Of a stretch of DNA of 34,339 nucleotides, positions 25,705 through 33,478 are shown piece after piece. The notes under the pieces were generated by a model. The model had not been told where the DNA came from, did no database searches, and saw nothing but the letters and a program-made list of their open reading frames with translations. The stretch's first letter is position 1. Each line of letters starts with the position of its first letter. The stretch comes from Nitrospirota bacterium (lineage in GTDB: Bacteria; Nitrospirota; Thermodesulfovibrionia; Thermodesulfovibrionales; UBA9159), in NCBI GenBank assembly GCA_023382175.1, contig JAMCQB010000168.1:1-34339 (forward strand), given 5' to 3'. Made by a program: the position numbers and the translations under genes.

Positions 25705-26967
25705 TCAGCCCTTGCCGGGGATGTCCAGGAGATAGCCGAATCTGTTCGTGAATTCGGCAGGGGTCATGTTCGCCGCCTTTGCGAGCTTCTTGAGATTCTC
25801 GGGAGAGAAATCCTCTTTTTCGAGGCGTATCATATACTGTCTTCCCACCGTATAGGTCTCGGACGTTATGTCAACAGTCCTCACCTTAACCTTTCCAGTG
25901 GAATGATCGATGGTCTCGACAAAGGGAACAGGGATGAGGCGCCCTTCGTACACCACGATCATTGCCCCTGTGCCCCCCTTGAGAAGATAGCTGACTGCGC
26001 CGTACCCGAGGTTCCTGGTGTATTCCACATCAAAGGGGATGGGGTTGGCAGCCCTCAGCTCATATCCGATATTCTTGTCCACAATGGTGACGGTGATGCC
26101 CAGAGACTCCAGGGTCTTTTTGACAAAATTCTTCAGGACCCTCCCAAGCTGGATCTCGGAAAGCCGTATCCTCCCTGTTTCGTCGCTCTCCAGTTGCTCA
26201 TGCTGGATCAGCTCTTCATGGTCAAACTTTTCTGCGATTCCCTCTGCAAGGATCGCCACCCCATGGTCCCTGTTCATCGAGAGTCTTTTAATGACGGAGC
26301 ACGTAAGGATGTCGGCGACTTTCCGGAAGGACAGCTTTTCCTCGCTGAATTCCTCAGGGATGAGGGTTATGGTCGCTCCTGACGCCGTTCCCATTCCCAG
26401 GGCCAGATGGCCGGTATACCTTCCCATGGTGGTGATGAAATACCACCTTCCTGTGGTGTTTGCATCCTCCATGATATTCTCGATGAGCTCGACCCCCCAG
26501 TGGCGTGCCGTCTGATATCCGAAGGTGGACGCCCCGCCGGGCAGGGGGATGTCGTTGTCGATGGTCTTGGGAACGTGGACAACGCTTATGGACCCCCTTG
26601 CTTCCTGCTCAATCCAGTTTGCCATGAAAAGGGTGCCTTCGCCGCCGATGGTGATGAGGTATTTTATGCCGGCGCTCTTCAGGGTGGACAGGAGGGTTTT
26701 GAACTTCTCCTTGGCCCTCTTGGGATATTCACGGGAGGTCCTGAGAATGGAGCCTCCCTGTGTATGTATTCTCGAAACATCCTCTATGGAAAGGGGGATC
26801 ACACGACTGTGGTCCCCGTCAAAGAGGGTCTTAAACCCGCCGCTGATTCCCACTACCTGCATCCCGTGAGACACGGCTTCAATGACCGCGGCGCTGATGA
26901 CTCCGTTGATCCCGGGAGCCGGACCACCCCCCACGATAATGCCTAATTTGCCGGCTATTCTTGGCAT
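25705..26967 (-). CDS. Phosphofructokinase family protein, donor-site hybrid (GGEGT/PKTIDND)
   Basis: The 420-residue protein has the PFK fold motifs GGGPAPGIN near residue 13, GGEGT at 108-112, PKTIDNDIP at 133-141 with catalytic Asp137 and Asp139, and MGRYTGHLAL. At the donor site, the fourth residue of GGEGT is Gly, as in ATP-dependent enzymes. The third is Glu instead of the usual Asp, and Lys134 is typical of PPi-type enzymes. The donor therefore cannot be predicted with confidence. It phosphorylates fructose-6-phosphate in glycolysis, or runs in reverse if PPi-linked. The ATG has GGGGA about 10 nt upstream. It lies just downstream of a second, distinct phosphofructokinase gene. Confidence 0.9.
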   Translation of the reverse strand: MPRIAGKLGIIVGGGPAPGINGVISAAVIEAVSHGMQVVGISGGFKTLFDGDHSRVIPLSIEDVSRIHTQGGSILRTSREYPKRAKEKFKTLLSTLKSAGIKYLITIGGEGTLFMANWIEQEARGSISVVHVPKTIDNDIPLPGGASTFGYQTARHWGVELIENIMEDANTTGRWYFITTMGRYTGHLALGMGTASGATITLIPEEFSEEKLSFRKVADILTCSVIKRLSMNRDHGVAILAEGIAEKFDHEELIQHEQLESDETGRIRLSEIQLGRVLKNFVKKTLESLGITVTIVDKNIGYELRAANPIPFDVEYTRNLGYGAVSYLLKGGTGAMIVVYEGRLIPVPFVETIDHSTGKVKVRTVDITSETYTVGRQYMIRLEKEDFSPENLKKLAKAANMTPAEFTNRFGYLLDIPGKG

Positions 26968-27066: not shown

Positions 27067-28281
27067 CTACAGATGCCTAGCGATCACTCCCTTAGCCTCG
27101 ACCATCTCATAATCGAATTTCTGAGGCTTTCTGCCGAAACAGATGCCGAGGCTTTCGAAAAGGGCGATCTCTCTGATATCCACTTCTCTCCGTTTTATGG
27201 CCTCGGATGTCGGCATATAGGATATCTTCTTACCCTCAACGCTGACCACGGTATTCCCGGACCTGCCCTCCAGGAGAAGGAGCACTGCCGCTGAGCCCGC
27301 CTTGTATCCGAAGTTGACATCGAAGGCGGAGGTCTGTCCGGAACGCACAAGGTGGCTGGGGATTATTTCCCTCACTTCAGGGATTTCATACACACCGGGA
27401 GCGTACATGCCCACTCTCTTCATGAACTCTTTTACCCCGGGGTCTGCCTTCAGTCTCTTTTCAACCTGCTGCTTCACATACTTTCCTGCTCCTGCAAGCT
27501 TTTTATGCCCGAAGGCGTCCACACCGGCTGATTCATCATAGAGCATTTCACCGCTTGCGGTCTTGATCCCCTCTGCAACAACGATCATATACGTTCCCGC
27601 TTTCACATCGCTTCTTTCTATTCTGGCAAAGTAGGTTGCCTTGATATGGTCATAAACGACGTCAAAGTCCACAGGGATTTCCGGTATCATGATGCAATCA
27701 GCCTCGGCGCCGATGCCCCCGCGCAGAGCGGTATGTCCCACATACCTGCCGAAGACCTCGACCACCATGATCCGGTTATGGCTCATGCCGGTGGTTTTCA
27801 GGTCCCTCACCATCACCGCTATCCTGTTGATGGCGGAATCCCCTCCCACGCTGTAAGGCTGGAGATCGAGGTCCATGGTCTTAGGGGCGTGGACGCACGG
27901 AATTCCCCGGGAGCCGAGGTCAACCACAACGCTTCCGGTATCGTCGCCGCCGCTTATCACCAGGCCATCTATGCCGAACTTCCTGAGTCCGTCCTTTATC
28001 CTCTGATAGGTGTTGGGATCGGATATCTTGCTGATCTTTACCCGAGAATGCCCGGCCTCGGATCCTGCAAGGGACGCCTCGATGCGGCTTACCCGCTCGG
28101 CATTGAGCACCACAACGTCGCTCAGGTCAACAAGATTGTAAAGACCCGCATAGCCGTTGGGAATAACAACGGATTCTATCCCGTGGGCATAGGCCTCCCT
28201 CGCAATACCCTTGATCACCGCGTTGAGCCCTCCCGCGTCTCCACCGCTGGTGATAATACCGATTCTCTTGATGTCAGGCAT
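27067..28281 (-). CDS. Pyrophosphate-type 6-phosphofructokinase
   Basis: The 404-residue protein begins IGIITSGGDAGGLNAVIKG. It has GGDDT at 111-115 and PKTMDLDL at 133-140. Asp at the fourth position of GGDDT plus the Lys before TMD is the established signature for pyrophosphate as phosphoryl donor, and the catalytic Asp137 and Asp139 are kept. VEVFGRYVGHTAL and the C-terminal FGYKAGSAAVLLL strand fit the family. The ATG has GGAGGG about seven nucleotides upstream. A PPi enzyme makes the step reversible, so with the aldolase upstream it could serve both glycolysis and gluconeogenesis. Confidence 0.92.
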   Translation of the reverse strand: MPDIKRIGIITSGGDAGGLNAVIKGIAREAYAHGIESVVIPNGYAGLYNLVDLSDVVVLNAERVSRIEASLAGSEAGHSRVKISKISDPNTYQRIKDGLRKFGIDGLVISGGDDTGSVVVDLGSRGIPCVHAPKTMDLDLQPYSVGGDSAINRIAVMVRDLKTTGMSHNRIMVVEVFGRYVGHTALRGGIGAEADCIMIPEIPVDFDVVYDHIKATYFARIERSDVKAGTYMIVVAEGIKTASGEMLYDESAGVDAFGHKKLAGAGKYVKQQVEKRLKADPGVKEFMKRVGMYAPGVYEIPEVREIIPSHLVRSGQTSAFDVNFGYKAGSAAVLLLLEGRSGNTVVSVEGKKISYMPTSEAIKRREVDIREIALFESLGICFGRKPQKFDYEMVEAKGVIARHL

Positions 28282-28523: not shown

Positions 28524-29885
28524 CTAGTCCAGGAGTCTTGCATCGATTTCCTTTGCTACAATCACCGGCTTTACGGTCTTTTTCACGATGTCCGCTGTAT
28601 TGACCACCTTCAGTTTTTCGAAAAGCAGGCCGAAACGGTCTTCCAGTTCCTTCATGATGGGCTCTTTCACATCTCTGGGGAGTTCCCACCATTTCTTCTT
28701 TAGGGGCCCGAACCCCTTTTTCCTCGTGCTGTAGATGAACTGCTCCTCTGTCTGGCCTTCCTTCCATTCCTTGGCATATTCCTGCTTTATGAAGGCATAG
28801 ACCTCATCCCTGAATGCAGCGGGCAGGTGGGGGTTGTCATAGACGATATTCTGGAAGCCGGTGGCGAGGTGCACCTCTGACGTGCCGGTCTTGGGGAACA
28901 TGTCGAAGGCCTCTTCAGGGAGGGTGGAGGCGCCATGCTGCACCGCGCCGGAGAGCCCGTATTCCTTCCTCACGATCTCCGAAAGTATCCGCAGCGTATC
29001 AAAGTCTATCTTCACCTTTGCCAGGGTGCCGTCGGGAAGCACGACCCCTCCGTGGCTTGTCCCTGTCTGGACGCTGAGCTTCGAAAGTCCCTTTCCCTGC
29101 GTCTTGAATGCCTCCCTGAACCCGTCCAGGTATGCCCTCAGTTCTTCAGGGGTGCTGTTCCTGGAGCCGATCTCGCCGATCTCGCCCCCCACAGAGATGT
29201 CAATGCCCCGGGGCTGGATCTCCCTGATGACCCACGCCAGTTCTGCGGTCCTCTCGAAGTTCGGCCTCTGTTGTTCCCTTGTGGTAGGCTTTTCGAGGTC
29301 AACGAGGGTTGATGTGTCGATATCGATATTGTAAAACTCCGCGTCAACAGCCTCTCTGATCAATCCCTTCACATAGTTCGTTTCCGCAGCCGGGTCCGAG
29401 AGGAAGTTCTTCCTCACCAGCTGAAAGTGGTCGCCCTGGATAAAGACGGGGCCCCTGAACCCTTCCCTCACTGCTGCGGCAAGGACCACTGCAGAATACT
29501 CGATGGGCCTCTGTTTTGTATATCCTATCTCGGAGCGGGCAATCTCGAAGATAAACGCTCCCACATTTTTTTCAATGGCCTTCCGGAAGACCGCCCGCGC
29601 AGCATCATAGGTCAATCCCCTGATGTTCATTGCAGGGACGGTGAAGCCACGGTAATCTCGGCCCAATTCCTCATACAGCCCCTGAATGGAAGCCGGGACC
29701 GCTCCGTATGCCTTTGCAATTTCCTTGATGATCATGAGGAGGTCCCTCTTTATATCATCGTTCTCCGCAAATACCGCATCGAACACAAGCTCATCCATTA
29801 CGCCCCTCAGGGCCTCGGGATTGCTCACCTGGAGCCTTCCCCCGGCAAACGAGACAACGCCTTTCAGTTTCATGAAGTTCATCAT
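28524..29885 (-). CDS. fba: Class II fructose-bisphosphate aldolase
   Basis: The 453-residue protein has the class II zinc-site motifs: QGDHFQL with the metal-binding His, GGEIGEIG, TGTSHGG and VQHGASTLP. It joins or splits fructose-1,6-bisphosphate with glyceraldehyde-3-phosphate and dihydroxyacetone phosphate. It is longer than E. coli-type class II enzymes (about 360) owing to an N-terminal helical part (AVFAENDDIKRDLLMII) and a C-terminal extension. The ATG at 29885 overlaps the stop of the four-cysteine small gene (ATGA) and has GGAGGAGGG upstream. Together with the two phosphofructokinases it forms a central-glycolysis cluster. Confidence 0.93.
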   Translation of the reverse strand: MMNFMKLKGVVSFAGGRLQVSNPEALRGVMDELVFDAVFAENDDIKRDLLMIIKEIAKAYGAVPASIQGLYEELGRDYRGFTVPAMNIRGLTYDAARAVFRKAIEKNVGAFIFEIARSEIGYTKQRPIEYSAVVLAAAVREGFRGPVFIQGDHFQLVRKNFLSDPAAETNYVKGLIREAVDAEFYNIDIDTSTLVDLEKPTTREQQRPNFERTAELAWVIREIQPRGIDISVGGEIGEIGSRNSTPEELRAYLDGFREAFKTQGKGLSKLSVQTGTSHGGVVLPDGTLAKVKIDFDTLRILSEIVRKEYGLSGAVQHGASTLPEEAFDMFPKTGTSEVHLATGFQNIVYDNPHLPAAFRDEVYAFIKQEYAKEWKEGQTEEQFIYSTRKKGFGPLKKKWWELPRDVKEPIMKELEDRFGLLFEKLKVVNTADIVKKTVKPVIVAKEIDARLLD

Positions 29886-30136: not shown

Positions 30137-31100
30137 TTATTGACCCTTCCTGAAATACCGGCTCAAGACCTTCTCTATATTATTCACTATACTATCTTTT
30201 GCGTTTATTATAAAGATTTTGTCTCCGGTCTGGAAGAGTTCTTTTTCGACGCGCTTTACAGGCGGGGGTTCGCTAGACAGCGGGCTTCCCAGATAAGAGG
30301 AAAGGACCCCCGGGGCCCTTTTCCTCAGTTCGTCCTCAAACATGGGCACGATCTTGTCCTTCATCCTCAGCTCTGTGTCCATGAAAAAGATGGCGATCTC
30401 GGGCCTGAGGTCGAGGATCCTGTCGAAGTAAGCCGAAATCTCATTGGCATATATCTGCTTCGGCGGCGAGGACTTCACTTCCATGTAGAGGAGGGAACTG
30501 TCGATCTTTGCGATGAGGTCATAGTCCCCGCCTACCACAGCACGTTTGAACTTTATCCCCCATATGGCCTCTGCCTCAAACTCCCTTTTGAATATCTGCG
30601 AGAGGAACCACTCAAGGGTCGGGCCGAAGCTCTTTACCGGCCCTTTTTTCAGGCGAAAACACCTTTGAGACCCCCCTGCGTCCCCCCTTGCCAAGGGGGG
30701 AATTAAAGAGGGGTCGCCTTTTTTTTCGCGTGCCTCTTCAATCAGTCTGATCTCCAAAAGATATTGAAGGTAGTCCTCTGTCACCTCCCGGGTGGAGTAA
30801 CGGGTGACATCCTCAATCGCAAACCCCTCCTGGCGCTTTATCACATCCCTGAGGAAAAGCCTGAAGGAATACTTGTTCAGGAAATGGTAATAGTCGTCAA
30901 TGTATCTCCTGCCGGGGAGGAGAAGGTCGTCCTGGGGTTCTTTCTTGAAGATCCTGAAGCCCCTTCTTCGGAGCAGCGCTGGAAGGGGGGGGGGCGAGTT
31001 CTGTGAGGGATTTCCTGAGCCTTTTGACCTCGGCCTTCAGCGAAAGTATATCGTCTCTAAGTTCATCCTCGTTCATCAGCAGGTGTCTATCATGCTCCAT
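30137..31100 (-). pseudogene. Frameshifted PD-(D/E)XK nuclease-like protein
   Basis: Two frames join into one protein. The first (31100 or 31076 to the G10 tract) encodes MNEDELRDDILSLKAEVK, a coiled coil. The second continues LPALLRRRGFRIFKKEP, then RRYIDDYYHFLNKYSFRLF and on to the stop at 30137. The break is at a run of ten G (30985-30994); nine or twelve would restore the frame. The second part has GGDYDLIAKI then LYMEVKSS, an Asp and E-x-K pair as in PD-(D/E)XK nucleases. Residues around nt 30669-30715 (PSLIPPLARGDAGG) are encoded by a palindromic repeat. The GTG at 30844 is an artificial start. Sequencing error, decay and phase variation are all possible; function is unknown. Confidence 0.72.
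30669..30715. repeat. CCCCCCTTG palindrome inside the nuclease-like gene
   Basis: The core CCCCCCTTG-C-CAAGGGGGG (30682-30700) is a perfect palindrome with 9-bp arms. It is flanked by GACCCC and GGGGTC as outer arms. Similar elements are common between genes in this kind of genome; here it is in frame within a coding region. Confidence 0.75.
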
Positions 31101-31420: not shown

Positions 31421-32242
31421 TCATATCCGCACATTCTCCGGCTTGACGGCTGTGATATACACTGAGAAGACCATCTTTTCCACACCTTCCCCGAAATTCC
31501 AGCCTCTTATGATCTCGTCGCTGTTACTCTTGTTCTGAATGACGATGCCGGTAAAACCGGCCCTTGTAAGGATCTTCTTCAGTTCCTCCACGGGAACCGA
31601 GCCGGTGATTCAGCCGCTGTAGGCATTCTCATTCTGTCTGATGGCTTCGGAGAATTCTCCCCTCTTGAGCACATCCGAGATGGCAAGCCTGCCGCCCGGT
31701 TTCAGGACCCTGAATGCCTCATTGAACACCGTCTGCTTGTCAGGGGAAAGGTTGATGACGCAATTGGAAATGATCACATCAACAGAGGCATGTTCCACGG
31801 GCAGATGCTCTATCTCTCCCAGCCTGAATTCTACATTTTTCAGTCCGAGTTTTTCTGCATTGGCCTTTGCCTTTGCTATCATCTCAGGAGTCATGTCTAT
31901 GCCGATGACATACCCGATCTTCCCTACCTTCATGGAAGAGAGGAAGGCGTCAAACCCTGCGCCGCTTCCCAGGTCGAGAACGGTCTCCCCTTCTTTAATA
32001 TCCGCAATGGCATGGGGATTGCCGCAGCCGAGGCCGAGGTTGGCCTCCCCAAGGCCGATCTTCAATTCCTCATCGGAATATCCGAGCCGCCGGCCTGTCT
32101 CCATGAGGCTTACGGCGCCGGTTTCCGGAGCGCAGCAGCTTGATGCCGGAAAGCAGGATGGTCTGCCGCTCGCCACAGCAGAATAACTTTTTATCACAAG
32201 CTGTTTGATCTTTGTTTTTTCTTTCTCCACGTATTGTCCCAT
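31421..32242 (-). CDS. arsM: Selenocysteine-containing ArsM/AS3MT-like arsenite methyltransferase
   Basis: The frame encodes 273 residues if the UGA at 31612-31610 is read as Sec211. Before it are [11 protein letters not shown] (SAM motif I, residues 88-98), Cys73 in LGLGCGNP, and [13 protein letters not shown] with Cys161. After it the frame runs 62 codons, [20 protein letters not shown] and then [20 protein letters not shown], a normal ArsM C-terminus. Human AS3MT uses Cys156 and Cys206, 50 apart; here Cys161 and Sec211 are also 50 apart and their contexts match. A SECIS-like stem-loop follows the UGA. The enzyme would methylate As(III) with SAM. It starts 3 nt after the ribBA stop, in the rib operon. 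The alternative is a nonsense mutation truncating it at 210 residues. Confidence 0.82.
31580..31599 (-). promoter_or_regulatory. Candidate bacterial SECIS element
   Basis: In the mRNA just after the UGA, CGGUUCC (31599-31593) pairs with GGAACUG (31586-31580). That is 7 bp including one G-U, closing the six-base loop CGUGGA (31592-31587). The loop starts 17 nt after the UGA and has G in its second position, within the commonly used bacterial SECIS rules (16-37 nt spacing, a G in the first two loop bases). Confidence 0.7.
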
Positions 32243-32245
32243 CCT

Positions 32246-33457
32246 CTAAACGTTATCCAGCATATGCCCGAGTTTCTTTTTTTTCGTCCTGAGGTAGATG
32301 ATATTCTTATCGTGGGGTCTGCTTTCTATGGACACCCTTTCCACGACCTTGAGGCCGTATCCTTCGAGGCCCACGATCTTTTTTGGATTGTTGGTCATGA
32401 GCCGCATCTTCCTGACCCCCAGATCAACCAGTATCTGCGCGCCGATGCCGTAGTCCCTCAAGTCCGGCTTGAACCCCAGCTTTAAGTTGGCCTCTACCGT
32501 GTCGAGACCTTTGTCCTGAAGTTCATATGCCCTCAATTTATTGGCGAGGCCGATACCCCTGCCCTCCTGCCTCATGTAGAGGACGACTCCCTTCTCCTCT
32601 TTATCGATCATCTGCACGGCTTGATGGAGCTGGTCTCCGCAATCGCATCTCCTGGAGCCGAAGACGTCCCCTGTGAGACATTCCGAGTGGACCCTCACGA
32701 GAACGGCATCCTCCGGCTTTATCTCCCCTTTCACCAAAGCGATATGGACATTGCTGTCCATATCGTTGGTGTATGCGATGGCCCTGAACTCGCCGTATTC
32801 AGTAGGGAGTTTCACATCAGAGATCCTCTTTACGAACCGTTCGGTACGCACCCGATAATGGATGAGGTCCTTGACGGTTACGATCTTGAGGTTGTGCCTC
32901 TTTGCAAATTCCATCAACTCAGGGACCCTGGCCATGGCGCCGTCGTCGCTCATTATCTCGCATATGACCCCTGCAGGATAAAGACCGGCGAGCCGTGCAA
33001 GGTCCACCGAGCCCTCTGTCTGGCCTGCCCTCTGGAGTACCCCTCCCGGTTTTGCCCTGAGGGGGAATACGTGCCCCGGCCGTGCAAGGTCATCAGCGCC
33101 GATCTTCAGGTCGATGGCGGTGAGTATGGTGGTTGCCCTGTCAGCAGCAGAGATTCCGGTGGTGACACCCTTTTTCGCCTCTATGGAGACGGTGAAGGCA
33201 GTGCCGAACTGGGAGGTATTTTCATCGGTCATCATTGACAGTTGCAGTTCCTCTACCCTCTGGGGGGTGAGGGACAGACAGATAAGCCCCCTGCCGTGCT
33301 TTGCCATGAAATTGATGGCGGACGGGGTTACCTTCTCTGCGGCCATGCAGAGGTCGCCCTCGTTCTCCCGGTCTTCGTCATCCACGAGGATCACCATTTT
33401 CCCCTTTGCAATGTCCTCTATGGCTTCATCTATGGTATTGAACTTATGTTTTTGCAT
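32246..33457 (-). CDS. ribBA: Bifunctional DHBP synthase / GTP cyclohydrolase II
   Basis: Residues 1-200 are RibB ([10 protein letters not shown] acidic metal loop, [25 protein letters not shown]), which makes 3,4-dihydroxy-2-butanone-4-phosphate. Residues ~205-403 are RibA with the zinc cysteines in [15 protein letters not shown] and the [12 protein letters not shown] loop. Both halves look active. I start at the ATG at 33457 (MQKHKFNT), because GGAGG lies seven nucleotides upstream. The longer frame to 33475 would place that ribosome site inside the coding region. It follows ribE and is followed within 3 nt by the methyltransferase gene. Confidence 0.96.
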
Positions 33458-33478
33458 CACTCTTCCTCCAAACATTGT

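Follow-up and report, generated by a model that had tools for sequence, protein, structure and literature searches.

The arsM gene on the minus strand of the window, as we call the whole analysed stretch of 34,339 nucleotides from a Nitrospirota bacterium (contig JAMCQB010000168.1), almost certainly encodes a selenocysteine (Sec)-containing arsenite methyltransferase, in which the in-frame UGA at codon 211 would be read as Sec. This reading is drawn from the UGA itself, the hairpin downstream of it, the Sec machinery genes of the genome, the alternation of Cys and Sec among relatives and the selection acting past the UGA. Together with the recurrence of the UGA in other genomes, these observations uphold the first-pass annotation of this DNA, which had proposed a probable selenoprotein. 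As a kind, Sec-containing ArsM proteins have been known since 2007; new here are the individual member, an apparently Sec-only Nitrospirota branch and three putative SECIS stems.

Gene, family and fold

Read from ATG 32242 on the minus strand, the frame covers 210 residues up to the TGA at 31612-31610; beyond it 62 further codons follow before the next TGA, at 31423-31421. On re-reading this agrees with the first-pass description and gives a joined product of 273 residues. The real start is probably not this ATG but GTG 32230 (codon 5), because the N-termini of relatives begin there in the alignment. The features to which we refer are the following.

31421 to 32242, minus strand: arsM, arsenite S-adenosylmethyltransferase with Sec at residue 211, 273 residues when read through (NF008823)
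31421 to 31423, minus strand: second UGA, taken as an ordinary stop; homology ends near here and no qualifying hairpin was found after it (best -3.4 kcal/mol)
31579 to 31600, minus strand: bacterial SECIS-type hairpin with the 8-bp stem UCGGUUCC/GGAACUGA and the loop CGUGGA at 31587-31592
31610 to 31612, minus strand: in-frame UGA, codon 211, third arsenic-binding position (Cys224 of CmArsM, Cys206 of human AS3MT)
31760 to 31762, minus strand: Cys161 codon, second arsenic-binding cysteine (Cys174 of CmArsM by phmmer), invariant in a 26-row alignment
32024 to 32026, minus strand: Cys73 codon, first arsenic-binding cysteine (Cys72 of CmArsM by phmmer), invariant in the same alignment
32132 to 32137, minus strand: Cys36-Cys37 codons, N-terminal cysteine pair conserved in at least 90% of the 26 alignment rows
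32246 to 33475, minus strand: ribBA, DHBP synthase/GTP cyclohydrolase II (NF006803, 641.6 bits, cut-off 569)

The ArsM-type identity assigned at first pass holds, as the joined 273-residue protein scores 333.9 bits with the NCBIfam arsenite methyltransferase model NF008823 (cut-off 263). A phmmer comparison with ArsM of C. merolae (CmArsM) places C73 on Cys72, C161 on Cys174 and codon 211 on Cys224, with residue numbers counted from the alignment, and agrees with the earlier placement of the UGA at the position of Cys206 of human AS3MT, whose active sites are Cys61, Cys156 and Cys206 (PMC4211708). In the 26-row alignment the three arsenic-binding positions are invariant as C, C and either C or U, while the Cys36-Cys37 pair is possibly a redox or arsenic-relay pair.

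The AlphaFold2 model of the product has a mean pLDDT of 86.8, and the top 12 Foldseek matches of this model by E-value are ArsM/AS3MT structures with moderate TM-scores (0.56-0.62), other methyltransferases following close behind. With the Cys-type ArsM/AS3MT proteins (CmArsM 4fr0, CrArsM 5evj, human AS3MT 8xt7) the window protein shares the fold, the three arsenic-binding positions and the spacing of 50 residues between the last two of these, here Cys161 and codon 211, for which the first-pass spacing and flanks (SNCVINL and SG-U-ITG) are correct. It differs from them in the predicted Sec in place of Cys at the third position and in its length, the PDB chains having 321-387 residues as compared with 273.

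The gene follows ribE and ribBA, the latter ending 3 nt before ATG 32242, and to judge by this spacing arsM is perhaps cotranscribed with ribBA, whose function would be unrelated. Among the identified neighbours, which are riboflavin and glycolysis-type genes, no ars genes were found. Further along on the minus strand, an ORF of 235 residues downstream of arsM (30137-30844) went unmatched in Pfam and NCBIfam at the thresholds applied, and two ORFs have a phosphofructokinase-type look, one at 27067-28281 (NF002872, 210.3 bits, below the cut-off of 253) and one at 25705-26967 (judged by eye); a distantly aldolase-like ORF at 28524-29885 (TIGR00167, 28.6 bits) lies upstream of both.

Relatives of the gene and the hairpin behind the UGA

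The relatives considered are the 110 loci (L021-L130) that matched the query best, taken as the top 80 of 180 in the genome collection and at most the top 30 in each genome search, a set that is not a census. Three of them (L045, L062 and L109) end before codon 211, leaving 107 readable best-match loci, in which this codon is TGA in 39, TGC in 35, TGT in 33 and nothing else. Homologs with Cys (68 of 107) and with UGA (39 of 107), both of which the first-pass annotation had looked for, thus exist, and relatives with any other residue at this position, which it had named as counter-evidence, do not occur among the readable loci. The 39 UGA rows correspond to 32 distinct 78-nt sequences, window included. 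In the window's own family a match at 1e-40 or better is found in four of seven genomes, all four of which, the own genome included, have UGA; 120 of 395 genomes of the phylum have a match, with codon 211 read in the fetched loci only. Apart from Nitrospirota, the named records with UGA-type genes belong to Desulfobulbaceae (L061), Desulfobacteraceae (L064) and Tissierella sp. P1 (L071), and two further records are titled Deltaproteobacteria (L063, L065).

A quick, unrooted tree of 100 rows (duplicates and short matches removed, the trait residue masked), computed without bootstrap and with long-branch warnings, gathers 31 of 32 Sec rows in a single branch (SH-aLRT 99), with Tissierella L071 separate, and forces at least two changes between Sec and Cys; because it is unrooted, gain and loss of Sec are indistinguishable. 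The Nitrospirota branch appears to be Sec-only, which is a modest new element. Relative to the window gene, pN/pS in 34 UGA-type loci (seven identical pairs included, loci of less than 60% identity left out) is 0.16-0.47 after the UGA and 0.14-0.38 before it, and the Cys-type locus L128 lies outside that range with 0.64 after codon 211 and 0.40 before. As judged from these ratios, which are alike on both sides, protein-level selection persists downstream of the UGA; sequence left unused behind a stop would not give such values.

In the model that a 2026 review gives for the bacterial SECIS element, the loop has 3-9 nt with a G at one of its first two positions, the stem has 4-16 bp, the distance from UGA to loop is 16-37 nt and the MFE is -7.5 or lower (PMC13188914). 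The window hairpin, with a loop of 6 nt that has G as its second nucleotide and begins 17 nt after the UGA, and with an energy of -10.6 kcal/mol (RNAfold, 33 nt; -9.8 for the bare hairpin), lies within all of these limits. In an ungapped-stem scan the same is true of 22 of the 32 distinct UGA sequences as compared with one of 68 Cys sequences (Fisher p 1.8e-13, relatedness ignored), while the remaining 10 UGA sequences miss the limit of -7.5 kcal/mol, three of them by far (L071 -3.2, L027 -3.7, L057 -5.1). Synonymous randomisation produced a hairpin as stable as that of the window in 25 of 5000 cases, the corresponding counts, each of 5000, being 109 for L022, 747 for L057, 13 for L061 and 84 for L065. 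Of the 1408 TGAs on both strands of the window, counting that of arsM, 44 have a hairpin that passes the limit of -7.5 and 15 have one that reaches -9.8. When 71 nt around the UGA are left to fold freely, the MFE structure is a different one and does not stand out (z -0.42, with equal stability in 61 of 200 shuffles), which is why the hairpin was tested by the published geometric criteria. At gathering scores, Rfam has no match in the window; bacterial SECIS elements of such a kind may be without an Rfam model.

Numbered from the U of UGA, the hairpins of the UGA sequences come in several builds. In the first (21 sequences, GGUUCC/GGAACU type) positions 15-20 pair with 27-32 around a 6-nt loop, in the second (7 sequences, GGUCUC/GAGACC type) positions 15-20 pair with 25-30 around a 4-nt loop, the third (L063-L065) has a different stem, the loop of which lies 20 nt downstream of the UGA, and Tissierella L071 has a weak fourth type. 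The encoded peptide tracks the build: VPVEEL occurs in 20 of the 21 sequences of the first, VSVET in all 7 of the second and ISP[GD]E in all 3 of the third. Within the group of 21 sequences, the stem of which hardly varies, no covariation beyond that of shuffles was found (315 of 500 reach at least the observed score). Three different SECIS stems in different registers at nearly one site would be a second new element, likewise modest.

Selenocysteine machinery and other readings of the UGA

The search for selA, selB, selC and selD suggested at first pass found all four in the genome, a draft of 171 contigs that is 86.8% complete: selA scores 620.4 bits, selB 362.4, selD 340.7 and selC, with a UCA anticodon, 72.9 bits. 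The selD gene (L018, G000:C136:1676-2599) has an in-frame TGA of its own in SSCAG-U-AAK, which we take to be the usual SelD Sec site, and looks like a selenoprotein gene too. Eight of 12 matches to the tRNA-Sec model were scanned by ARAGORN, and a UCA anticodon was found in L001 only, which is called tRNA-Sec. Another of the matches, L002 1501-1596 (G000:C46:2291-2382), is a selC-like tRNA-Cys with the anticodon GCA and a long variable arm that scores 58.2 bits with the tRNA-Sec model (cut-off 47) and resembles the selC* tRNA-Cys described from Nitrospirae and others (PMC7609411).

Among 24 genomes with a UGA-type arsM, all read at codon level, selA and selB are each present in 23, as compared with 12 and 11, respectively, of 24 comparison genomes of the same phylum (Fisher p 0.0007 and 0.0003, kinship ignored). 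The comparison genomes were hand-picked from the better non-UGA matches, five being codon-read (L046-L050) and 19 judged by the absence of internal stops only. In one UGA genome, G222 (96% completeness), no match to either selA or selB was found. Four others (G288, G358, G286 and G186) have two or three selB-type genes above the cut-off, of which the additional ones are perhaps the selB* partner of selC* tRNAs.

As the UGA differs by a single base from both Cys codons and the assembly is fragmented, an error for TGC or TGT comes to mind, as does a disabling mutation in a decaying gene; with the identical UGA in 31 further distinct sequences, and with protein-level selection and a SECIS-type hairpin downstream and Sec machinery genes in the genome, this has a vanishingly small probability. 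The recurrence of the UGA in other genomes was taken in place of resequencing, and recurrence and selection together led us to reject sequencing error and pseudogene. Insertion of another amino acid, either Cys by a UCA-reading tRNA-Cys or Trp through a changed code, would be conceivable in a genome that has a selC-like tRNA-Cys, since UCA versions of such tRNAs exist in Desulfobacterales (PMC7609411), and may yield a minor product under selenium starvation. The anticodon of the tRNA-Cys is nevertheless GCA, UCA being confined to the tRNA-Sec among the eight loci scanned, the hairpin and SelA, SelB and SelD favour Sec, and relatives have Cys but never Trp in the aligned column, so that this decoding is extremely improbable; a changed genetic code was discarded on account of the aligned Cys and the presence of tRNA-Sec(UCA). 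If the UGA served as a stop, either true or regulated, the working form would have 210 residues, or the codon would sense selenium and switch between a shorter and a longer product; we regard this as very unlikely. Translation must indeed end at UGA 211 when Sec-tRNA is missing, and the generic methyltransferase domains PF08241 (residues 89-188) and PF13649 (88-184) end before it, but the best domain match, PF13847 (82-229), spans the UGA, purifying selection acts on the 62 C-terminal codons as it does on the rest of the gene, and most Cys-type relatives in the alignment reach as far C-terminally as the window protein.

A Sec-containing methyltransferase could also have a natural substrate other than arsenite, such as a different metalloid or an organic thiol, and the location of the window copy behind ribBA, without identified ars genes, is in favour of this. 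Against it stand the retention of the three arsenic-binding positions, the score with NF008823 and the surroundings of relatives, on which grounds we regard a different substrate as quite unlikely. Flanks were viewed for 15 UGA-type loci and one Cys locus (L066), Pfam being run on nine neighbour genes from five loci and the remaining neighbours judged by eye. Ars-type neighbours occur in five of the 15 UGA-type loci: upstream of L054 lie Thioredoxin_3, an ArsR-type regulator, an SBF-family transporter, presumably Acr3-like, and an ArsP_1 permease; an ArsR-type regulator lies upstream of both L056 and L071; L065 is flanked by an ArsP_1 permease and an ArsR-type regulator; and L064 is followed by a Thioredoxin_3 gene. 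In the other 10 UGA-type loci no ars neighbour was identified by eye. The own genome encodes Acr3 elsewhere (301.4 bits, cut-off 282.8).

Proposed chemistry and known selenoproteins

With the UGA read as Sec, SelB carrying Sec-tRNA(UCA) would be recruited by the downstream hairpin, Sec would be put in at UGA 211 and the protein would end at the second UGA. In Cys-type enzymes As(III) has three ligands and methylarsenite two, and a disulfide may form between the last two of the ligands (PMC4211708, PMC3877260). By family likeness, the ligands of As(III) would be Cys73, Cys161 and Sec211, S-adenosylmethionine would supply the methyl groups and the product of the first methylation would be held by Cys161 and Sec211 alone, between which, by analogy, a selenylsulfide would take the place of the Cys-type disulfide.

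Compared with a thiolate, a selenolate is both more acidic and more nucleophilic. It should, on chemical analogy, bind trivalent arsenic and form or open the selenylsulfide with Cys161 more readily than a disulfide, while the faster methyl transfer or changed substrate that Sec might bring is speculation. If Sec alters the chemistry, monomethylarsenite would be held and released differently, and the product range or the reductant would be unlike those of Cys-type ArsM. The role is likely arsenic detoxification in the Nitrospirota bacterium, which, going by its named relatives, is probably an anaerobe. A wider proposal, in which Sec-ArsM of the Nitrospirota clade has long been fixed with an altered chemistry and the RNA hairpin, built in three versions from different codons, has shaped the peptide downstream of the UGA, is tentative and, taken as a whole, doubtful.

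Where UGA is called as a stop, the gene is reduced to a fragment of 210 residues lacking the third arsenic ligand, and therefore the potential for arsenic methylation in such Nitrospirota may be under-counted. Sec and Cys forms of a well-studied enzyme within one phylum, on the other hand, make a clean system for the role of selenium in metalloid chemistry.

Sec in the ArsM family, the novelty of which the first-pass annotation had not settled, is already in print in tables and reference lists back to 2007. The arsenite methyltransferase selenoprotein NF008823 with a UxxG motif (WP_011987699.1) is listed with Fomenko et al. 2007 Science (PMC13188914), a similar entry is found in PMC9312934, and for mouse AS3MT Fomenko et al. 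proposed that the redox-active residues are Cys157 and Cys207 (PMC4211708). Ocean samples had eight such selenoproteins as compared with 245 Cys homologues (PMC2398784), and a 2016 survey counted 41 Sec arsenite methyltransferases in 39 organisms (PMC5029168). The window protein shares with the listed selenoprotein (NF008823/PRK11873) the family model, the UxxG motif (U-I-T-G) and the single Sec. It is set apart from the listed Sec arsenite methyltransferases by its Nitrospirota origin; in the excerpts of open-licence literature searched, no description of a Nitrospirota Sec-ArsM clade or of its hairpins was found.

Similar in their ArsM-like domain and UxxG Sec motif are NF041537 (ArsM/AhpD), NF041536 (ArsM/DUF2284) and NF047649 (methyltransferase/UXPK-star), listed with two or three Sec (PMC13188914), which differ in an extra domain or motif and in the number of Sec. 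The window protein scores far under their cut-offs (166.7 of 510, 164.7 of 575 and 161 of 460 bits, respectively) and ends after the ArsM domain, without the second domain of the multi-Sec fusion proteins.
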